Assembly: GCF_017161425.1 (NCBI RefSeq)
Contig: NZ_CP071057.1
Coordinates: forward strand, 3,349,501-3,413,500
From: Marinicauda algicola
Lineage (GTDB): Bacteria; Pseudomonadota; Alphaproteobacteria; Caulobacterales; Maricaulaceae
Direction: 5' to 3'
DNA length: 64,000 nucleotides
Shown: positions 9,134-19,473 of the stretch, one piece after another
How the letters are laid out: each line of letters begins with the position of its first letter
Position numbering within the stretch: the stretch's first letter is position 1
Position numbers and translations under genes: made by a program
Notes under the pieces: model-generated
Told to the model about the DNA's origin: nothing
The model's input: only the letters and a program-made list of their open reading frames with translations
The model's database searches: none

Positions 9134-9188
9134 AGGTTGTTCGTCGAGTTCTTGATCCTGACCGTTCGTTGTGTCTCGATCCCCCCTC

Positions 9189-9213
9189 AACGGGCGATGT
9201 CCATGTTGGTTCC
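9189..9213 (-). promoter_or_regulatory. EcfG-dependent promoter of nepR
   Basis: On the minus strand GGAAC (9213-9209), 16 bases, then CGTT (9192-9189). This is an exact match to the alphaproteobacterial general stress sigma consensus GGAAC-N16/17-CGTT. It reads toward nepR and implies autoregulation of the anti-sigma factor. Confidence 0.88.
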
Positions 9214-9231
9214 GAAAATTTGCATGTCAAC

Positions 9232-9256
9232 GGAACCTCCGGCTCCGCCGCGCGTT
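9232..9256 (+). promoter_or_regulatory. EcfG-dependent promoter of phyR
   Basis: GGAAC (9232-9236), 16 bases, CGTT (9253-9256), reading toward phyR 42 bases downstream. Together with the opposite promoter at 9189-9213 this makes a divergent EcfG-controlled pair with only 18 bases between the two -35 elements. Confidence 0.88.
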
Positions 9257-9297
9257 CGCTAGCGACGATACCGATTGATCGTAATACCGGGACGACC

Positions 9298-10089
9298 ATG
9301 CCATTCAGCACCGCCATCCGCCCTCACATCCCCTATCTCAGGCGCTATGCCCGCATCCTCACTGGTTCGCAGGAAAGCGGCGACGCCTATGTGCGCGCCT
9401 CGCTCGAGGCGGCCATCGAGGGGGAGGCTGAGCTCGACCGCGATCTTCCCCCTAACGTCGCGCTCTACCAGCTGTTCCACGCGACGTGGAAGAATGCCGG
9501 CTCGCGACTGACCGGCGACAACCGCCTGAACGGCAAATCGGAGAAGCTCGACGACATCCCGTCCGAGGCGCGCCACGTGCTGTTGCTGACCGCAGTGGAG
9601 AACTTCACCGTCGAGCAGGCCGCCACGATCCTCAGGATCGGCGAAGACGAGGCCCGAAAGCTCCTGAAGAAGGCGCAGGCCCATCTCGAGGGCGGACTTG
9701 CCACCGAGGTTCTGATCATCGAGGACGAGCCGATCATCGCGCTCGACCTGCAATCGATCGCCGAGAAGATGGGCCACAAGGTCGTCGGCATCGCGCGCAC
9801 GCGCGACGAGGCGGTCAAGCTCGCCCGCGAGAAGAGCCCCAGGCTCGTGCTGGCCGACATCCAGCTCGCCGACGACAGCTCCGGGATCGATGCAGCTCAG
9901 GATATCCTGGAACTCGGCACCGTGCCGGTGATCTTCATCACCGCCTATCCCGAGCGCCTGCTGACCGGCAAGAAGCCGGAGCCGACCTATCTCATCACCA
10001 AGCCCTTCATGCCCGAAACCGTGGCCGCGACGGTCAGCCAGGCGCTGTTCTTCGCCGGTGACGCGAGGCGCCAGGCCGCGGCCGAGTAG
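9298..10089 (+). CDS. phyR: General stress response regulator PhyR
   Basis: A 263-residue protein with the diagnostic PhyR layout: an ECF-sigma-like domain first (about 1-130: region 2-like RRYARILTGSQESGDAYV and region 4-like VENFTVEQAATIL), then a receiver domain (138-255) with acidic EDE at 142-144, phospho-acceptor Asp187 (LADIQLADD), Thr in FITAYPE and Lys in ITKPF. Phosphorylation exposes the sigma-like domain, which sequesters NepR. ATG 9298 lies 42 bases after the EcfG promoter; longer frames from 9169 would start upstream of that promoter. It is followed after 3 bases by a DUF1328 gene. Confidence 0.95.
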   Translation: MPFSTAIRPHIPYLRRYARILTGSQESGDAYVRASLEAAIEGEAELDRDLPPNVALYQLFHATWKNAGSRLTGDNRLNGKSEKLDDIPSEARHVLLLTAVENFTVEQAATILRIGEDEARKLLKKAQAHLEGGLATEVLIIEDEPIIALDLQSIAEKMGHKVVGIARTRDEAVKLAREKSPRLVLADIQLADDSSGIDAAQDILELGTVPVIFITAYPERLLTGKKPEPTYLITKPFMPETVAATVSQALFFAGDARRQAAAE

Positions 10090-10092
10090 GCG

Positions 10093-10266
10093 ATGTTCGG
10101 CCTCGCCCTCCTGTTCGCGATCGTCGCCCTGGTGGCGGCGTGGTTCGGCTTTTTCGGCCTGGCCGGCACGGCGGCGATGATCGCCCAGTGGATCTTCGTG
10201 ATCGCGCTGGTGCTCGCGGTCGTCTCCGCGCTTTTCAAGGCCCTGCGGGGGCGTCCGCCGGTCTAG
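10093..10266 (+). CDS. DUF1328 small membrane protein (YtjA-like)
   Basis: A 57-residue protein: MFGLALLFAIVALVAAWFGF, then GLAGTAA and a second hydrophobic helix ending before a short basic tail (FKALRGRPPV). The Phe-Gly-Phe-x-Gly-Leu-Ala-Gly-Thr-Ala-Ala centre between two transmembrane helices (about 3-21 and 29-49) is the signature of DUF1328. The function is unknown. It begins 3 bases after the phyR stop, so it is almost certainly expressed from the EcfG promoter, a stress-linked membrane protein. Its TAG overlaps the TAG of the convergent cydC in CTAG (10263-10266). Confidence 0.87.
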   Translation: MFGLALLFAIVALVAAWFGFFGLAGTAAMIAQWIFVIALVLAVVSALFKALRGRPPV

Positions 10267-11987
10267 CGGGTTGACGGCGCGAAGCCGGGAAACAGCCGGT
10301 CGAAGGCGCCGCCGGAACCGGCCAGGCGTCCGGCCGGCCCGCGTTCCGCGATCCGGCCCTCCTCCAGCACGACGATCTCGCGCGCCGGTGCCAGCAGGGC
10401 CGGCCGGTGGGTCACGATCAGGACCGAGCGGTCCGCCCGCTCGCCGAGCCAGTCCTCCAGCGCGGCGACGAATTCGGCCTCGGTCGCCGCGTCCAGTCCT
10501 TCGGTGGGCTCGTCCAGCAGCAGGACCGGCGCGTCCTTCACGAAGGCGCGCGCGAGCGCGATGCGCCGGGCCTGTCCGCCCGAGACCAGCGCGCCCTGTT
10601 CGCCGATCCAGGTGTCGAGCCCGTCGGGCAGGGCCCGCACGAAGCGGTCCGCCCGCGCGCGCTCGAGCGCGGCCCACAGCGCGGCCTCGCCCGCCTGCGG
10701 GCGGGCCAGCAGAAGATTGTCGCGCACGCTCGCCGAGAGAAGCTCCGCGCGCTGGTCGACGAGGGCGAGCCGGGTGCGGATCGCGGCCGGGTCGAGGCGT
10801 TCATAATCCGCCCCGTCCATAGCGATCGCGCCCGCGTCGGGGGCGTAGAAGCGCATCAGCAGGCGCACGATCGAGGACTTGCCGGAGCCGGAGGCGCCGA
10901 CGACGGCGATCCGGGCGCCCCGGTCCAGGTCGAGATCGATCCCGGCCAGGGCCGGCGCCGAGCGGCCGGGATAGGTGAAATGCACCCCGCGCAGCGACAG
11001 GCCGGAGCCCGCCGGCAGGGAGGACGGATCCTGCGGTGCGCACACGGCCGGCTCCATCTCGCCGAGCGCCCGAAGCCGGCGGGCCGCGGCGGTGGTGCGT
11101 CCGGCCGCTTCTCCGGCCTGGACCAGCGGGCCTGCGGCCTCGAACAGGGCGAAGGCTGCGAAACCGGCAAGGGCCGACAGCGCGGGCCCGGCTCCGCCGG
11201 CCGCGGCGAGCGCGATCGCGGTGACGAGGGCGAGCGGGCCGGCAAGGCCCAGTACCGCAGCATTGGCCAGCGCGAGGCGCGACAGGTGCCGCCGGCTCTC
11301 GCTCCATTGCGCGCAAGCCGCCTCGAGCCGGGCGCGCACGCGCGCATCCGCGCCGTAGGCCTTCAGCTCGGGGAGCCCGGCGGCGAGATCGCCCGCCTCG
11401 GCGCGGGCGCGCGCGCCGGCCTCCGCGATGCGGGTGCCCGCCTCCCGGCCGGCGCGCGCGGCGAGGAGCGGCAGCCCGATCGCACAGGCCAGGAACAGGG
11501 CGAGCACGCCGGGAAGGGCGAGCGGTGCGGTGAAGGCCAGGAGCACGCTCACCGCGATCACGCCGCAGGCCGCCGCGATCGCCGGCGTGACGAGGCGCAG
11601 ATAGAGCCCGTCCAGCGCATCGACATCTCCGGTGACGCGGGCCAGGAGATCGCCGCCGCGCAGTTCGGCCAGCCGGCCGGGCGCGAGCGGGGCCACGGTG
11701 CGGAACACCCAGACGCGCAGCCGGGCGAGTATGCGGAAGGTCGCCTCGTGCGTCGCCAGGCGCTCGCCATAGCGCGAGAGCGGGCGCAGCAGGGCGAAGC
11801 CGCGCACGCCGCGGGTCGCCGCGATCGCTGCGCCGAAGCCGGACAGCGCCGCGGCGGCGACGAACCAGCCCGATATCGACATGAGCCCGATGCCGGCCAG
11901 CAGCGTCAGCGCGGCGAGCGCCGCGCCGAGGCGAAGCCACCAGCGGTCGGGATGCGCGAGGGCGAGGAAGAAGCGCAGATCGTTCAC
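10263..11987 (-). CDS. cydC: Thiol reductant ABC exporter subunit CydC
   Basis: A 574-residue ABC half-transporter: six transmembrane helices in the first 310 residues, including the CydC-typical RYGERLATHEATFRILARLR and GDLLARVTGDVDALDGLYLR segments, then an ATPase domain with Walker A GASGSGKS (near 370), signature VSGGQARR (near 470) and Walker B VLLLDEPTEGLD. With CydD it exports cysteine/glutathione to the periplasm, needed for cytochrome bd and c assembly. The GTG start at 11987 overlaps the cydD stop in GTGA. No cydAB oxidase genes are in the window. Confidence 0.93.
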   Translation of the reverse strand: MNDLRFFLALAHPDRWWLRLGAALAALTLLAGIGLMSISGWFVAAAALSGFGAAIAATRGVRGFALLRPLSRYGERLATHEATFRILARLRVWVFRTVAPLAPGRLAELRGGDLLARVTGDVDALDGLYLRLVTPAIAAACGVIAVSVLLAFTAPLALPGVLALFLACAIGLPLLAARAGREAGTRIAEAGARARAEAGDLAAGLPELKAYGADARVRARLEAACAQWSESRRHLSRLALANAAVLGLAGPLALVTAIALAAAGGAGPALSALAGFAAFALFEAAGPLVQAGEAAGRTTAAARRLRALGEMEPAVCAPQDPSSLPAGSGLSLRGVHFTYPGRSAPALAGIDLDLDRGARIAVVGASGSGKSSIVRLLMRFYAPDAGAIAMDGADYERLDPAAIRTRLALVDQRAELLSASVRDNLLLARPQAGEAALWAALERARADRFVRALPDGLDTWIGEQGALVSGGQARRIALARAFVKDAPVLLLDEPTEGLDAATEAEFVAALEDWLGERADRSVLIVTHRPALLAPAREIVVLEEGRIAERGPAGRLAGSGGAFDRLFPGFAPSTR

Positions 11988-13660
11988 GACACGCCCTCCG
12001 CCACGGGCGCGAGTTCGACCACGTGGTCGCAGGCCGCGCGTACGGCCGGGCTATGGGTGGCGATCAGCACCGTGCGCCCGCGCGCCGCTTCGGTGAGGCG
12101 GGCCAGGAAGCGGGCCTCGCTGAGGCCGTCGAGATGGGCGGTGGGCTCGTCCAGCAGGAGGAGCTTCATGTCCGCCGCCAGGGCGCGCGCCAGCGCGACC
12201 CGCTGGGCCTGCCCGCCCGACAGCGCGTAGCCGCGCTCGCCGAGCCGGGTGTCGAGCCCGTCGGGAAGGCTGGCGGCGAAATCCAGGACGCCGGCCGCCT
12301 CGGCCGCCGCCAGGATCCGGTCCTGTCCCAGCGTCTCGTCGAACAGTGCGATGTTCTCCGCCAGCGTGCCGTGGAACAGGCGCGGGCGCTGGGCGATCCA
12401 GGCGGCGCGGCCGAGCAGCGGGCCGTCTGCCGGAACGCCGTCGACCAGGATGCGGCCCGCGCTCGCCGGCGCATAGCCCATCAGCAGCTTCAGCGCGGTC
12501 GACTTGCCCGCCCCGGACGGCCCCCACAGGCCGGTGATCTGGCCGGCCGGAGCGCAAAAGCTCAGCGTGTCGAGGCCGCGGCGCCCGTCCGGATAGACGC
12601 TCGAGACCGCCTCGAACCGGATCTGCGGGGCGGTGGCGAAACCGGCTGCGGGGGGGCTGGCGGACATCCCGGGACCGTCGAGGATCGGATCGAGCGCCTC
12701 GGCGGCAGCCTCGGCATCGGCGCGGTCGTGATAGGCCGCCGAGAAGCGGCGCATCGGCGTGTAGAACTCCGGAGCGAGGAGCAGGAGGAAGACCGCGCCG
12801 CGCAGGGCGAGGTCGCGGTCGGGCCCCAGCGCGATCACGTCCATCAGGGTGAGGCCGGCATAGATCGCGGTCGCGGCGATGGCGAAGGCGGACACGATCT
12901 CCAGCGCCGCGGAGGACAGGAAGGCGATGCGCAGCACCTTCATGGTGCGCCGGCGCAGCTCGTCGGCGGCCCGCGCGAGTCCTGCCGCCTCGCGCCCGGC
13001 CGCGTTGAAGGCGTTGAGCGTTTCCAGCGCCTGGAGCCGGTCGTTGAAGCGCCCCGCAAGCCGGCGCAGCGTGGCCAGCTGATCCCGGCTCGCCTCCGCG
13101 GCTCCGGCGCCCACGATCGCGGTCACCGCGATGAAGACCGGAGCGGACAGGAGCAGACCGGCGGCCACGACCGGGCTCGCCGCCGCGGCGGCGAGCACCA
13201 GGACGAGCGGGCCTCCCGCCAGCACCGGCAGGAGCGGGCGGTAGCGCGCGAAATAGCCCTCGAGCTTTTCCACCGCATCGATCAGGGCGGCCGAAATCGC
13301 ACCGGTCTCGTGGCGCTCGGTGAAGGCCGGCCCGCGTGCGCACAGCGCGCGCGCGGCCTGCCGGCGCACATGGTCGCGGATGAGGAGGGATGCCTCGATG
13401 CCGGCGCGGGTCTCGCCTGCCTGCAGGAGGGCCCGCACGAGGGCGAGTCCCGCCGCCGCTGCAAGCCAGCCGGCAAAGGGACGGCCCTCCACGAGCGCCG
13501 CGAGCGCGCTCGCAGCGCAGAAGGCGAAGCCGGCAAAGATCGCGTACTGCGCGATGCCGAGGCCGGCTCCGATACGAATCCAGCCAAGGCCTGCCCGCTC
13601 CCACGTGCCGAGGCGTCGGGCAGGCTGTTCGGGGCTGTCCGGGGAAGGGGAATCGGTCAT
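11984..13660 (-). CDS. cydD: Thiol reductant ABC exporter subunit CydD
   Basis: A 558-residue ABC half-transporter, partner of CydC. The N-terminal 310 residues are membrane-spanning with the CydD motifs AGETRAGIEASLLIRDHVRR and the EFYTPMRRFSAAYHDRADA linker. The ATPase domain has Walker A GPSGAGKS, signature ALSGGQAQR and Walker B LLLLDEPTAHLD. An upstream in-frame start at 13714 would add 18 residues; ATG 13660 was chosen because it begins the acidic, Pro/Ser-rich leader directly before the first conserved helix. The end overlaps cydC by 4 bases. Confidence 0.92.
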   Translation of the reverse strand: MTDSPSPDSPEQPARRLGTWERAGLGWIRIGAGLGIAQYAIFAGFAFCAASALAALVEGRPFAGWLAAAAGLALVRALLQAGETRAGIEASLLIRDHVRRQAARALCARGPAFTERHETGAISAALIDAVEKLEGYFARYRPLLPVLAGGPLVLVLAAAAASPVVAAGLLLSAPVFIAVTAIVGAGAAEASRDQLATLRRLAGRFNDRLQALETLNAFNAAGREAAGLARAADELRRRTMKVLRIAFLSSAALEIVSAFAIAATAIYAGLTLMDVIALGPDRDLALRGAVFLLLLAPEFYTPMRRFSAAYHDRADAEAAAEALDPILDGPGMSASPPAAGFATAPQIRFEAVSSVYPDGRRGLDTLSFCAPAGQITGLWGPSGAGKSTALKLLMGYAPASAGRILVDGVPADGPLLGRAAWIAQRPRLFHGTLAENIALFDETLGQDRILAAAEAAGVLDFAASLPDGLDTRLGERGYALSGGQAQRVALARALAADMKLLLLDEPTAHLDGLSEARFLARLTEAARGRTVLIATHSPAVRAACDHVVELAPVAEGVS

Positions 13661-13736
13661 CGAGGCGGGGTCTAGCACGGATCGGGCGGGGCGAACCGTG
13701 ACCTCCTGCCTCATGTGACGCCAAAGGGAAAGGGGG

Positions 13737-14402
13737 CTAGCGCGTCCCGGCGAAGGGCGAGGCGTCGTCGAGCAGCGTGCGGGCCGGCACCGGCCGGGTG
13801 CGATTGAACAGCCAGACCATCAGCGTATCGCCCTGGGTCTCCAGGCGCTGGCGATGGGCCGGCTCGCTGTTCTCCACCGTGGTGGAATGAAGGTACCAGT
13901 TGCCGATCTGGTCGCGCACCGGGACGTTCACCGTTCGCCAGTAGCGCCGACCGTCCGTGCCGGGCGTGAACCAGTAGCCTTCCAGGCAGGAAACGTCGCC
14001 GGTGAAGGCGCCGAGCTCGATCATGCGCGCGATCTCGAGGCTCGCCTCCTCGCCGAGTTCGCCGCCGATCTTGTGGCCGGGGCGGTAGCGGTCGAAGGGT
14101 TCGCCGCTTGCCGGCACGGCCGGGCTCACCGCCACCATGCGCACGCCGTCCTCCTCCAGCGAGGACAGCATGATGTGATGGGGCGAATGCAGCACGGTCG
14201 CGACCCAGTGCTCGAAATGGGGGCGGTGCTGCGGCGTCTCCAGCAGCTTGCGGATGCGCTCGGCGAGGTCGGCGGACGGGCGGGCGGCGCCCGATTCCAG
14301 CCGCGAGACGTAGGCCTGGCTCACGCCGATATGCGAGGCGGCAACGTCCTGCTTCATCCCGACGGCTGCGCGAAACTTGCGCAGTTCGACGCCCCAATCC
14401 AT
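13737..14402 (-). CDS. XRE-family regulator with unknown C-terminal domain (copy 1)
   Basis: A 221-residue protein: an N-terminal HTH_3 domain (2-65; MKQDVAASHIGVSQAYVSRLESG is the helix-turn-helix) and a C-terminal domain of about 150 residues with CLEGYWFTPG and VNVPVRDQIGNWYLHSTT that I do not recognise. GGAGGGG directly before ATG 14402 decides the start. A paralog with the same layout lies at 16176-16796, and the two flank the globin transducer. The C-terminal domain may bind a ligand or read a partner (inference). There is no membrane segment. Confidence 0.8.
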   Translation of the reverse strand: MDWGVELRKFRAAVGMKQDVAASHIGVSQAYVSRLESGAARPSADLAERIRKLLETPQHRPHFEHWVATVLHSPHHIMLSSLEEDGVRMVAVSPAVPASGEPFDRYRPGHKIGGELGEEASLEIARMIELGAFTGDVSCLEGYWFTPGTDGRRYWRTVNVPVRDQIGNWYLHSTTVENSEPAHRQRLETQGDTLMVWLFNRTRPVPARTLLDDASPFAGTR

Positions 14403-14643
14403 GTCCCCTCCGTGGCCCAAAGCCGTGAAAAATCAGGAAGCTGCTCTTGTCCGCGATCTGTATGCGGAAGTCCAGAGCCCAACGCAATCGGTGAGTGCGT
14501 TCGCTTCGCGGTCAGGGTCGGTACGGGAAAAAACGCGCCGGCGGGGCAAGGGTTGCGGGGAGCCCCGCCGGCGCGAAGTTGGGGCAGGTGCCGAGAGGGA
14601 CGGGACGGAAAGATCGTCCGAAGGCCTGCCCGGTGTGGCGTGA

Positions 14644-15990
14644 TCAGGCGGCGCGCATGCGGGAGAGGAATTCGGCGACGCGCGCTTCCAGGTCGGCGGT
14701 GCGGTTGCGCACGTCCTCCGAGACGCGCTTGACGTCGGCAGCGGCGCTGCCGGTTTCGCGCGCCCGCGCTTCCAGGGCCTGGGCCGATTCCGCGGCGCTC
14801 TGGTTGCCTGCGGTGGCTTCCTCGGCGTTGCGCGCGATCTCCTGGGTTGCGACGGACTGCTCCTCGACCGCGGCATTGATCGCGACGGCCGCCTCGCTGA
14901 TCTGGTTGATCGTGTTGCGGATGAGCTCCATCGCCTCCACCGCCGAGCCGGTGGCCGCCTGCATGGCGCCGACCTGTGCGGCGATCTCCTCGGTCGCCTT
15001 GGCGGTCTGGTTGGCGAGCGTCTTGACCTCCTGGGCGACGACCGCGAAGCCCTTGCCGGCCTCGCCGGCCCGTGCGCTCTCGATCGTGGCGTTGAGCGCC
15101 AGCAGGTTGGTCTGCTCGGCAATGTCCTTGATGAGGCTCACCACGCCGCCGATCTGCTTGGCCGCGGCGTCGAGCTCGGAGAGGGTGCGCGCCGCGTTCG
15201 AGGCGTTGTCGACAGCACCCTTGGCGGTCTCGCTCTGGCTCGCCGCCTGGCTCGCGATCTCCTGGGAGGCCGCTCCCATCTGGCTGGAGGCGGTCGCGAC
15301 CGACTTCACGTTGGCGGTCGCTTCCTCGGCGCCCGAGGCGACGCTCGCGGCGCGAGTCACGGTGTCGTCGACCGCCTCGTTGACGGTCTTGGCCGCACCG
15401 TCCAGGGCGCTGGTCGCCGCGGCGAGCGCCTTGACGATCTCGCCGACCCCGCCCTCCAGCGACGCCGCGAATTCCTCGCGCTGGCGGCGCGCGGCGGCCT
15501 CGCTCTCCTCGAGATAGATCGAGATGGCCAGTTCCATGTCGAGGAAGATGGCCCGTACCAGCGCGTCGATCGCCGCATCGGCCTTGCCGCGCGCAGAGCG
15601 CATCACGCCCTTGGCGACGCAGTGATTGACGGCCGCCTTCATCAGGTCCGACGCCAGGAGGGCGTAGCCGCCGATATAGTAGCGCGGCTCGAGCCCGATC
15701 TTGGCGTGCACGCCGCCGATTCGCCGCACCGACTGGGCATAGCTCTCGTTGAACTCGCCCGACAGGATGTTGGTCCAGTGGTCGCTCTGGCGCGACTTCG
15801 CTGCGGACCGGTGCTGCTCGTTGGAGAAGAAGCGATTGACGGCCGGCGTCTTCACGATGAGCGCGTAGAACCGGTCGAGCGCACGCGGCAGCTCGGCCTT
15901 TACCGCCTCGCGGATTTCCCCGAAGGCTTCCCGGCTCTGGGCGTCGATTCCGTAGAAGGAAAGGCGTTCGGAAAGATCGATGTTCGACAT
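14644..15990 (-). CDS. Globin-coupled methyl-accepting chemotaxis transducer
   Basis: A 448-residue soluble transducer of the HemAT type. Residues 10-165 form a protoglobin sensor: the proximal His95 lies in [18 protein letters not shown], with the conserved LDRFYALI helix B before it. No transmembrane helix or HAMP follows. The signalling domain (about 200-445) is a coiled-coil MCP domain with the hairpin tip [20 protein letters not shown] and [11 protein letters not shown]. It should bind heme and respond to O2 (or NO/CO) for aerotaxis. No che genes are nearby. It is flanked on the same strand by two paralogous XRE regulators. Confidence 0.93.
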
Positions 15991-16044
15991 GGAAAAGTCC
16001 CCGCTTCGCCGTCGCGACCTGCGACAAGATGCCGCCGAGGCTGG

Positions 16045-16130
16045 GGGTCGAATGGTAAACGAGTATTAATATTACCAGCGGGTCGACCGGATAATTTATT
16101 ATTACTTATGCAGTATTATGATCCCGCTCC
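16045..16130. promoter_or_regulatory. AT-rich promoter region upstream of the globin transducer
   Basis: Between the transducer start (15990) and the second XRE gene lies the most AT-rich stretch of this part: AGTATTAATATTA near 16051-16063 is self-complementary (TATTAATA core), followed by ATAATTTATTATTACTTATG. It probably holds the transducer promoter and an operator. I cannot assign exact -35/-10 boxes. Confidence 0.4.
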
Positions 16131-16175
16131 GCGACATCTGTCGTGGCGCGGCTGAACTGCCGTGGCCGACCGCCA

Positions 16176-16796
16176 TCATCCCGCGTGTTCGCGTTCCCGA
16201 ATCACGACCGGATAGTGCCCGGCCTTGAGCTGTTCGGCGAAGGCGTCGCTGGGAACCGGCTCGTTCGCCGAATGCACGTACCAGGCACCGAGATCGTCGC
16301 GCACCGGCACGTTGACCGAGCGGAAGTAATAGGTCATTCGCGCCGTGGGCACGGCCCACAGCCCCTCCATGCACTGCACCCGCCCGTCGAACAGGCCGAG
16401 ATCGACCATCTTGCGCAGGTGCGGCTCGAAGCGCGCGCCGAGAACCGCGCCGAGTCGGTCGCCGGGCTTGAGGGCCGACAACGGCGCCGCCAGCTGGCGG
16501 TAACCGCGTGCGATCTCGACCACGTAGGCCTCGCCGTTCTCGTAGCGCAGCACCACCGACAGGCCGTTCGAATAGCGAACCGTCGCCAGCCAGTGATCGA
16601 AGTGGGGTCGATTCTCGCGCGTGCGCAGCAATTGGGCGATGCGGCTCTCGATCTCCGGCGTCGGCGTGGTCACCCCGGCTTCGAGGCGGGAAATATAGGC
16701 CTGGCTCACCCCGAGATGGGCGGCCACGGCCTCCTGTTTCATCTTCTTGCGCAGACGAAACGCGCGCAGTTCCAATCCCCAGTCGTTCTCGGCCAT
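16176..16796 (-). CDS. XRE-family regulator with unknown C-terminal domain (copy 2)
   Basis: A 206-residue paralog of the 13737-14402 product. It has an HTH_3 domain at 4-66 (MKQEAVAAHLGVSQAYISRL), the linker PHFDHWLATVRYSNG matching PHFEHWVATVLHSPH of copy 1, and a C-terminal domain with CMEGLW and SVNVPVRDDLGAWYVHSAN. The frame extends to 16877, but MAENDWGLELRAFR aligns with the start of copy 1, so ATG 16796 was chosen. Same strand as the transducer, upstream of it. Low sequence identity outside the motifs suggests an old duplication with divergent ligands or sites. Confidence 0.78.
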   Translation of the reverse strand: MAENDWGLELRAFRLRKKMKQEAVAAHLGVSQAYISRLEAGVTTPTPEIESRIAQLLRTRENRPHFDHWLATVRYSNGLSVVLRYENGEAYVVEIARGYRQLAAPLSALKPGDRLGAVLGARFEPHLRKMVDLGLFDGRVQCMEGLWAVPTARMTYYFRSVNVPVRDDLGAWYVHSANEPVPSDAFAEQLKAGHYPVVIREREHAG

Positions 16797-17070: not shown

Positions 17071-18882
17071 ATGGGCCTGTTCCAGGCGATCAGACGCGAG
17101 TTGTTCTACGTCACGGAGCTCTCGCGGCTCCTGCGCAAGCTCAAATCCATTACCCCGGACTCCGACTATCTCACGGCGGATCTCCTGGAAGACAGCGTCG
17201 ACCGGCACAGGCGCAGGCCGGCCTTCGTCGGCGAAGGCGAAGCGGTCAGCTACGCCGCATTCGACGCGCGCGCCAACCGTGTCGCCAACTGGGCGCTCGC
17301 GCAGGGGCTGAAGTCCGGCGACACGGTTGCGCTCTACATGGGCAATCGCTGGGACTACATCGCGATCTGGTACGGCCTGTCCAAGGTCGGCGTGGTCACG
17401 GCCCTTCTGAACAACCAGGTCACCGGCAAGGCGCTCGCTCACGGCCTGACCATCGCCGAAGCGCGGCACGTCATCGTCGAGGGCGAGCTGTCCGAGGCCT
17501 ACGCCACGGCGTGCGACATACTCGAATGCGAGATGACCGCCTGGGTCAGCGACGGCGGCACGCGCGGCATCGCCGGCGCAGAGGATTTCGATGCCGCGCT
17601 GCAGTCGGTTTCCGACGCGCGCCCCTCGCGCGAGCATCGTGCGCACCTGCGGGCCAAGGACGCCTGCATGAAGATGTACACCTCCGGCACGACGGGCCTG
17701 CCCAAGGCGGCCATCGTCGCCCACACGCGTGCGCTCTACTATCTGCAGGTCTTCGCGACGCTGGTTCGGGCGAACCCGAAGGACCGCATGATGATGGTCC
17801 TGCCGCTCTATCACGCAACGGGCGGGCTGTGCGGGGTGGGCTGCGCGCTCGCCTTCGGCGGGGCGCTGATCGTGCGGCGCAAGTTCTCCGCGACCAGGTT
17901 CTGGGAAGATGCGGTGGAGCACGGCGCGACGCTGTTCATGTATGTCGGGGAGCTGTGCCGATTCCTCGTCGCGGCCGATCCCCATCCGCTGGAGAAGACG
18001 CACACGATCCGTGCCGCCATCGGCAACGGTCTGCGCCCCGATGTCTGGCCGCGCTTCGTCAAGCGCACGGGCATCCCGCGCATCGTCGAGTTCTACGGTG
18101 CGACCGAGGGCAATGTCGGCCTCGTCAACCTGGATTCCACGCCAGGCGCGATCGGGCGCATCCCGCCCTATCTGAAGAAGCGGTTCAACGTCGAACTCGT
18201 GAAGTTCGACATGGATGCGGAAGCACCCGTGCGCGACGCGCAGGGGCGCTGCATCCCGTGCGAGCCCGGCGAGGTCGGCGAAGCGATCGGTGAGATCCGT
18301 CCCGAGGACGCGCGCCACCGCTTCGACGGCTACCAGGACCGGGAAGCCACCGAGAAGAAGCTGCTGCGCAACGTCTTCGCCGAGGGCGATACCTGGTTCA
18401 GGACCGGCGACCTCATGCGCCGCGACAAGCTCGGCTACTACTATTTCGTCGACCGGGTCGGGGACACCTTCCGCTGGAAGTCGGAAAACGTCGCGACCTC
18501 GGAGGTCGCCGAGGTGCTCGGCATGGACGAGGGGGTGGTGCAGGCCAATATCTACGGCGTGCCGGTCGCGGACTATTCGGGCAAGGCCGGCATGGCCGCG
18601 CTGGTGGTCAACGAGGCGTTCGACCTCGCCCGGCTGCACGCGCTCGTCCATCGCGAGCTGCCCCACTATGCCCGCCCGCTCTTCCTGCGCATCCACCAGG
18701 AGGATCCGAGCGCGCACACCACGGGCACGTTCAAGATGAAGAAGACCGATCTGGTCAAGGAAGGCTGGGACCCCGACAAGGTCGCCGAGCCGCTCTATTT
18801 CGACGATCCGGAGAGCGGGGCCTACAAGCAACTGACGCCGGAATTCCGCGCGAGGATCGAGCGCGGCGATCTGAGGGTGTAG
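17071..18882 (+). CDS. Long/very-long-chain acyl-CoA synthetase, FATP type
   Basis: A 603-residue AMP-forming synthetase that activates fatty acids to acyl-CoA. The AMP/ATP loop MYTSGTTGLPKA lies near 200-211, EFYGATEGNVGL near 344-355, and GDLMRRDKLGYYYFVDRVGDTFRWKSENV near 445-473. The last motif, with FRWKGEN-like wording, is typical of the fatty-acid-transport-protein/ACSVL branch. GGGAGGAGGGG at 17058-17068 decides the start. It is directly followed by a DUF924 gene with no gap. It probably works in lipid uptake and beta-oxidation. Confidence 0.9.
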   Translation: MGLFQAIRRELFYVTELSRLLRKLKSITPDSDYLTADLLEDSVDRHRRRPAFVGEGEAVSYAAFDARANRVANWALAQGLKSGDTVALYMGNRWDYIAIWYGLSKVGVVTALLNNQVTGKALAHGLTIAEARHVIVEGELSEAYATACDILECEMTAWVSDGGTRGIAGAEDFDAALQSVSDARPSREHRAHLRAKDACMKMYTSGTTGLPKAAIVAHTRALYYLQVFATLVRANPKDRMMMVLPLYHATGGLCGVGCALAFGGALIVRRKFSATRFWEDAVEHGATLFMYVGELCRFLVAADPHPLEKTHTIRAAIGNGLRPDVWPRFVKRTGIPRIVEFYGATEGNVGLVNLDSTPGAIGRIPPYLKKRFNVELVKFDMDAEAPVRDAQGRCIPCEPGEVGEAIGEIRPEDARHRFDGYQDREATEKKLLRNVFAEGDTWFRTGDLMRRDKLGYYYFVDRVGDTFRWKSENVATSEVAEVLGMDEGVVQANIYGVPVADYSGKAGMAALVVNEAFDLARLHALVHRELPHYARPLFLRIHQEDPSAHTTGTFKMKKTDLVKEGWDPDKVAEPLYFDDPESGAYKQLTPEFRARIERGDLRV

Positions 18883-19473
18883 ATGACCGGCGTGGCACCC
18901 GACGAGATCATCGAGTTCTGGTTCGAGCGCACGCCCGCCTCGGCCTGGTTCACCGTCGACCCGGCCTTCGATGCGCGGGTGCGCCGGCTGTTCGCGCCCT
19001 TCGTCTTCACGCTGGAGCGCGAGCGCGAGATCGAAAGCCATCCCTGGCTGTCCGGCCCGGAGGGCGCGCTCGCCCTGATCCTGGCCTGCGACCAGTTCCC
19101 GAGGAATATCTGGCGCGGCACGCCCAAGGCCTTCGCGCTCGACGCGAAGGGTCTGATGCTGGCGCGGATCGCCGTGCAGGCCGGCTATGACTGGGTGTTC
19201 GGCGAGGACCGGCGGGCCTTCGTGTACATGCCCTTCATGCACAGCGAGGACATCGAGGACCAGGACGCCTGCGTCGCGCTGACGGAGGAGCGTCTGGGCG
19301 CGGACACGAGCTATGCCCGCCATGCCCGGTCCCATCGCGACGTCATCGCCCGTTTCGGCCGCTTTCCCCACCGCAACGCCATCCTTGGCCGGGCCTCGAC
19401 GCCGGAGGAGGCGCGCTTTCTCGCCGAGGGCGGCTACGCACCCGGCGCGAAACGCCCGGCAAAATCGTCCTGA
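18883..19473 (+). CDS. DUF924 family protein
   Basis: A 196-residue protein of the DUF924 family: IIEFWFE at the start, then a run of conserved helices with LILACDQFPRNIWRGTPKAF (64-83), YMPFMHSEDIEDQD (about 110-123) and HRDVIARFGRFPHRNAILGR (about 147-166). The fold is all-helical, TPR-like; the function is unknown. Its ATG abuts the stop of the acyl-CoA synthetase, so the two share a transcript. Confidence 0.9.
   Translation: MTGVAPDEIIEFWFERTPASAWFTVDPAFDARVRRLFAPFVFTLEREREIESHPWLSGPEGALALILACDQFPRNIWRGTPKAFALDAKGLMLARIAVQAGYDWVFGEDRRAFVYMPFMHSEDIEDQDACVALTEERLGADTSYARHARSHRDVIARFGRFPHRNAILGRASTPEEARFLAEGGYAPGAKRPAKSS

Follow-up and report, generated by a model that had tools for sequence, protein, structure and literature searches.

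XRE Regulators with a Predicted PAS Domain Flank a Globin-Coupled Chemotaxis Receptor next to cydDC in Marinicauda algicola

Introduction

In the AppA/PpsR system, a BLUF antirepressor acts together with a PAS-HTH repressor on oxygen- and light-related genes. VqmA, a PAS-HTH quorum-sensing regulator of the one-component type, carries a LuxR-type HTH at its C-terminus, and LOV photoreceptors have a conserved photoactive cysteine in the Ealpha helix. HemAT-type globin-coupled sensors join a protoglobin domain, with a conserved proximal-type histidine block, to an MCP signaling domain. The nearest known architecture to the proteins described here is that of the MmyB-like regulator MltR (3pxp), which is reported to have an Xre-type N-terminal HTH and a C-terminal PAS-like ligand-binding domain holding myristic acid (PMC3406030). 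XRE regulators of Caulobacter lack a recognizable C-terminal domain, according to the report on them (PMC10688885).

Here we analyze a 64,000-nucleotide stretch of DNA (the window), part of the closed 3.42 Mb genome of M. algicola, a member of the Maricaulaceae whose genus includes Marinicauda pacifica. It encodes two XRE proteins, XRE-A and XRE-B, on either side of a globin-coupled chemotaxis receptor. Both share with MltR the N-terminal HTH and a predicted PAS-like C-terminal domain, and differ from it in their gene neighbors. A resemblance to AppA/PpsR, suggested by BLUF gene linkage and grouping, would lie in the pairing of a BLUF protein with a PAS and HTH regulator; here, in contrast, an N-terminal HTH belongs to the XRE type, each BLUF protein is short and has a single domain, and no photosynthesis genes were seen. 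VqmA matches the predicted PAS fold (Z 10.3 and 9.9), but the alignment covers the PAS part alone and the order of the domains is opposite to that in XRE-A and XRE-B. A literature search, with subscription journals mostly outside its scope, found no relevant paper pairing BLUF with XRE regulators, with or without cytochrome bd, and no account of a globin-coupled sensor with cytochrome bd and chemotaxis, or of cydDC with a PAS transcriptional regulator.

Gene Organization of the Locus

The minus strand of the window reads XRE-A, protoglobin-MCP receptor, XRE-B, cydD and cydC (Table 1), with successive gaps of 185, 241 and 22 bp, the last between XRE-B and the start of cydD. The original prediction placed two XRE genes on one strand around a heme-globin transducer, which is what we observe, and its coordinates are correct (XRE-B stop at 13737, XRE-A start at 16796). 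The sequence blocks that it described as common to the two proteins are likewise real (CMEGLW / CLEGYW and VNVPVRDDLGAWYVHS / VNVPVRDQIGNWYLHS). Two neighbors had gone unmentioned: cydDC next to XRE-B, identified by matches to TIGR02857 and TIGR02868 above the cut-offs, and BLUF across the family.

Table 1. Features of the XRE-A to cydC locus and its flank (window coordinates).
Feature	Coordinates	Strand	Evidence
XRE-A: XRE HTH and predicted divergent PAS domain	16176..16796	-	Pfam HTH_3 E 2.8e-12; AlphaFold pLDDT 89.2; PAS chains Z up to 10.4
Globin-coupled chemotaxis receptor, protoglobin and MCP signaling domain	14644..15990	-	PF11563 E 8.8e-36; PF00015 E 1e-27
Terminator-like hairpin 3' of globin gene	14527..14575	-	Perfect 14-base arms 14534-14547 and 14562-14575, then six T on minus strand
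XRE-B: architecture as XRE-A	13737..14402	-	Pfam HTH; AlphaFold pLDDT 88.8, strand order as in XRE-A
cydD, thiol reductant ABC exporter subunit	11984..13714	-	TIGR02857 463.3 bits, cut-off 435
cydC, thiol reductant ABC exporter subunit; few-base overlap with cydD	10263..11987	-	TIGR02868 413.9 bits, cut-off 329.05
AMP-binding (acyl-CoA synthetase-like) gene, divergent from XRE-A; arrangement recurs in relatives	17071..18882	+	PF00501 E 1.3e-58
DUF924 gene adjoining synthetase; recurrent neighbor in relatives	18883..19473	+	PF06041 E 1.5e-56

A consensus scan for terminators listed none; its loop limit was 8, so that the hairpin downstream of the receptor gene was passed over. On account of this hairpin, XRE-A with the receptor gene and XRE-B with cydDC probably form separate transcripts. 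The AT content reaches 60% at 16041-16125, part of the region before the receptor gene, against 31% window-wide, and the receptor gene may therefore have its own promoter. At the far end of the cluster, a PhyR-type stress response regulator gene (9169-10089) lies convergent to cydC, and a similar gene occupies the same place in M. pacifica (L054).

XRE-A and XRE-B are 40% identical over XRE-A residues 3-186 (E 1.0e-46), a resemblance far beyond chance that marks them as homologous. Both contain an HTH of the Cro/C1-type XRE family (Pfam HTH_31/HTH_3, above cut-off, E 8.9e-10 to 2.8e-12), at about residues 6-58 in XRE-A. Since the first alignable residues of XRE-B are MDWG, translation probably starts at the ATG at 14402 and not at the TTG at 14420.

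The C-Terminal Domain Is Predicted to Adopt a Divergent PAS Fold

The C-terminal domains of XRE-A and XRE-B match no Pfam or NCBIfam model, and no Pfam PAS family at E up to 1. A profile of the domain found nothing credible among the sequences of solved structures (three matches, best E 0.75), and XRE-A alone found mostly HTH entries. In the AlphaFold models of both proteins, made from a 12-row alignment (Table 1), two strands are followed by helices and three strands that form an antiparallel sheet, which is the PAS order. Over residues 63-195, the XRE-A model aligns with PAS chains (BvgS PAS, VqmA, LOV, Aer2) at Z scores from about 9 to 10.4, in a list where absence of a family does not amount to its exclusion. 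A Foldseek search with the same model placed LOV proteins at the top and MltR (3pxp) at rank 20 (E 9.5e-5). At the sequence level, three of the nine divergent homologues scanned match PAS_4 or PAS_9 (E < 0.01), one of them above cut-off (24.6 vs 23.1 bits).

Taken together, the strand order of the models, the alignments with PAS chains and the weak PAS_4/PAS_9 bridges identify the C-terminal domain, at the level of predicted structure, as a divergent PAS domain and not a new fold (about residues 63-195 of XRE-A, roughly 16212-16610). The "new ligand-binding domain" of the original prediction is thus not supported as to fold, although the domain did prove to match no named family model. Assignment to the MmyB/MltR family was considered and rejected: no such Pfam family matches at E up to 1, and the domain measures about 130 residues, against about 200 with extra helices reported for MltR (PMC3406030).

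Among 12 aligned members the invariant residues G134, G138, P164 and W172 look structural. The same alignment contains no conserved cysteine in the C-terminal domain and no conserved histidine in its helices: no histidine is invariant or nearly invariant between residues 63 and 174, and the near-invariant H62 and H175 fall in the linker and the last strand. Heme or LOV chemistry is therefore without support, and so is the earlier proposal that this domain binds O2, NO or heme. The lack of a cysteine among the invariant or nearly invariant columns speaks against a LOV photoreceptor, and the lack of a conserved axial histidine in the helical part against a heme-binding PAS domain of the FixL or Aer2 type.

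Paralogs and Distribution of the XRE-PAS Family

Five family members are encoded in the M. algicola genome: the window pair, a pair at 2391 kb and a single member at 829 kb. The 2391 kb pair, one of which is frameshifted, sits between sdhB and a BLUF gene. The frame of this second paralog (L007:6375-8283, about 2390.4-2392.3 kb) is broken near the conserved VPVRD block; M. pacifica has a single XRE gene after sdhB (L055). The 829 kb member comes after another synthetase-like gene. An XRE subgroup located just after a same-strand acyl-CoA synthetase-like gene is seen at this place (L008:6787-9632) and in four relatives (L093, L099, L100, L101).

In a tree of 46 sequences (two of the 48 XRE open frames were left out because of their short model span), XRE-B pairs with the XRE gene preceding cydDC in M. 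pacifica (support 100/99, 64% identity), which identifies the two as orthologues on sequence grounds. XRE-A falls into a separate group (96/84, 14 rows), with the sdhB/BLUF-side paralogs of the same genome and synthetase-linked members; the window pair is therefore not a recent tandem duplication.

We searched 119 Maricaulaceae genomes with a profile built from 23 C-terminal domains and found the family in 34 of them, representing 6 of 19 genera; 71 of the places are strong, spread over 33 genomes, and 19 are weak. Eight loci were found in the named collection; L043, a 36-residue match, was left out. A class-wide scan, which scored at most 11 candidates per genome and may thus miss distant members, matched 2 of 385 genomes, namely the window's own and one with a weak broken match (E 8e-4). 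Judged from these searches, the family is nearly restricted to the Maricaulaceae.

The neighborhood is conserved, as the original prediction had supposed. Protoglobin genes lie within 3 kb of 18 of the 71 strong members (expected 0.33), BLUF genes (PF04940) within 3 kb of at least 23 (expected 0.33) and CydA matches within 7 kb of 13 (expected 0.21), where the expected values assume uniform placement and rounded genome sizes and the counts are inflated by kinship, related genomes not being independent. Among the matches listed, BLUF is the commonest of these three partners, is linked in all six genera and shares the strand of the XRE gene in 21 of 23 pairs; none of the three is close to 41 of the 71 strong members or to any of the 19 weak ones. 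Viewed from the partners, an XRE gene is linked to 20 of the 150 BLUFs listed, to 15 of 79 protoglobins and to 11 of 50 CydA matches.

Grouping of Linked BLUF Proteins and Globin Receptors

The window locus has no BLUF gene; the linked-type BLUF of this genome is found at the second locus, where it adjoins two further XRE paralogs. For a BLUF tree we chose 20 unlinked sequences by hand from the 130 listed without a strong XRE gene nearby; of the 40 BLUF loci, L129 was left out because it gave no match, leaving 39 rows. All 20 linked BLUFs fall on one side of a branch that separates them from the 19 unlinked BLUFs of Maricaulaceae (90/74). This branch occurs in 86% of the bootstrap trees, and none of 500 shuffles was as low. 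A tree with 17 of the 20 linked BLUFs gave 88/94 and 92%. The branch support is moderate, below the tool's starred level, and the linked BLUF of L068 is on a very long branch. The linked BLUFs group together despite their cyd, sdh and other contexts.

Both domains of the window receptor score above the Pfam cut-offs, and its sequence weakly matches HemAT (1or4, E 3e-4) and the globin 2w31 (E 9.7e-6). The histidine of the HxxxGL block is present in all 26 aligned rows, 11 of the 15 linked globin genes being included, which places the protein among the globin-coupled sensors of the chemotaxis type. It resembles HemAT in its domains and its conserved proximal-type histidine block, whereas it belongs to an XRE-linked lineage: 13 linked receptors fall in a 15-member clade (100/100), whose other two members are unlinked. 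Of the 15 linked globin genes, a fragment in G059 and a gene cut by a contig end in G133 were left out of this tree. At 10 of the 11 loci with a labeled globin gene a BLUF gene adjoins it, the window being the exception. The window is also the only one of the 11 in which XRE genes flank the globin gene; at the other loci all XRE genes lie to one side of it. Two more protoglobin-MCP genes occur in the same genome (L082:6510-10176, about 110.5-114.1 kb), of a lineage unlinked to XRE genes; in one of them the globin part is split by a frame change with a stop.

Association with Cytochrome bd Genes

Relatives carry the XRE family at the cytochrome bd locus, with cydAB/cydDC. In L096, for example, the order is ACS< XRE> XRE> globin-MCP> BLUF> cydB< cydA< cydD> cydC>. 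A divergent synthetase gene is present at 17 of 39 drawn loci, 16 of which also have a cyd gene; the remaining one, L109, is on a contig that ends soon after the XRE gene. Since 20 of the 39 loci were chosen for a strong match or a nearby partner, this tally, made by hand, does not come from a random sample. Of the 17 long CydA matches, which span more than 1,400 bp, 11 are linked to an XRE gene, against 0 of the 33 others; in all 13 linked pairs the CydA strand is opposite to that of the XRE gene.

Neither cydA (PF01654) nor cydB (PF02322) has a match anywhere in the closed M. algicola genome, and cytochrome bd is thus not a target of the XRE regulators here. The window nevertheless retains cydDC (10263-13714), which may serve thiol or heme export. 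With respect to the O2- or NO-linked unit originally proposed, the link to oxygen is strengthened by the adjoining cydDC and by cydAB/cydDC in relatives; sensing of O2, NO or heme by the PAS domain is the part that does not stand.

Search for a Common Operator

Dyad and k-mer counts in 44 upstream regions gave no family-wide signal. A 5-base dyad of ATGCATGCAT occurs in four regions, barely above shuffles (maximum 3); in L062, L104, L105 and L108, four genomes of one genus, this palindrome precedes the start of the XRE HTH by about 80-110 bp. A 16-base palindromic motif from 31 regions reached a log-likelihood ratio of 71, compared to 30-43 for shuffled sequence and 33-47 for random control promoters, and less clearly above the 58 of the most AT-rich controls. 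When some genera served for training and the others for testing, the motif did better than the full set of controls (p 0.013 and 0.004) but showed no excess over AT-matched controls (p 0.42 and 0.59). We therefore rejected it as an operator.

Discussion

We lean modestly toward the view that XRE-A and XRE-B regulate respiratory genes as one-component HTH-PAS proteins and have been inherited together with the globin aerotaxis receptor and, outside the window locus, with BLUF. The N-terminal XRE domain would bind DNA, and the divergent PAS domain would take the signal, either by sensing redox state or a small molecule or by offering a surface on which a partner protein docks. The putative target of XRE-B is most likely its own transcript together with cydDC, and that of XRE-A its own promoter, facing the divergent acyl-CoA synthetase gene; the XRE-A promoter may help drive the receptor gene, and the receptor would supply aerotaxis under the same control. 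The likeliest protein partner would be the BLUF of one lineage that is found beside the XRE gene in many relatives. In M. algicola, where this BLUF is encoded at the second locus only, any contact with the window regulators would be made in trans. The explanation is weakened by the lack of cydA and cydB in the genome, of BLUF at the window locus and of a cross-validated operator, by the 41 of 71 strong and all 19 weak members without any of the three partners, and by the moderate support for the BLUF branch.

It is possible, if doubtful, that the association amounts to a Maricaulaceae module in which a short BLUF, drawn from a single lineage, forms a complex with the PAS domain of the XRE regulator, so that blue light and oxygen would jointly set respiration and taxis. 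Oxygen would, on the same tentative footing, enter by way of the respiratory targets and of the globin receptor inherited along with the regulator, and in M. algicola the module would be split over two loci, cytochrome bd itself having been lost.

Alternatively, the PAS domain could bind a fatty acid or acyl compound, with the acyl-CoA synthetase genes as the main targets and the respiratory, globin and BLUF genes as passengers or a secondary regulon. Two separate acyl-CoA synthetase neighbors, the divergent one (at 17 of the 39 loci drawn) and the one preceding another XRE subgroup (L008, L093, L099-L101), together with the myristic acid reported to be bound by MltR (PMC3406030; 3pxp), make a lipid ligand possible, and the fold matches include, at Z 9.5, the PAS domain of RpfR with C12:0. 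We nonetheless regard this explanation as unlikely: a shared PAS fold says little on the ligand, and the sdhB-side members (L007, L055) and the members with globin and BLUF only (L067, L106, L110) have no labeled synthetase adjoining.

We also think it rather improbable that the neighborhood reflects inherited synteny and has no function, with the XRE family as a generic paralogous group whose linked genes are not its targets. The five copies in this genome, the presence of the family in 34 of 119 genomes and the partnerless strong members would fit such a history, but BLUF recurs by XRE genes whether the setting is cyd, sdh or another one. This recurrence, with the grouping of the linked BLUFs across settings, makes inheritance of a single block a poor explanation, and the clustering of both linked BLUFs and linked globin receptors argues for a module rather than accidental synteny, even if related genomes inflate the counts. 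Heme-based sensing of O2 or NO by the PAS domain itself, with the globin receptor as a parallel sensor, is very improbable: the fold matches do include the Aer2 heme PAS (Z 9.6) and oxygen-respiration genes are nearby, but those matches span many ligand types, and the 12 aligned members have no conserved histidine between residues 63 and 174, H62 and H175 being in the linker and the last strand.

The reading of XRE-A and XRE-B as HTH-PAS regulators of respiratory genes gives a predicted architecture to a family that Pfam and NCBIfam do not name, whose members adjoin a single lineage of BLUF proteins, a single lineage of globin receptors and one cytochrome bd type far more often than expected by chance. 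The BLUF/XRE signaling module of the Maricaulaceae, itself doubtful, would if true be previously undescribed. The association offers a concrete, testable hypothesis for a coupling of respiration to light and oxygen in marine bacteria.
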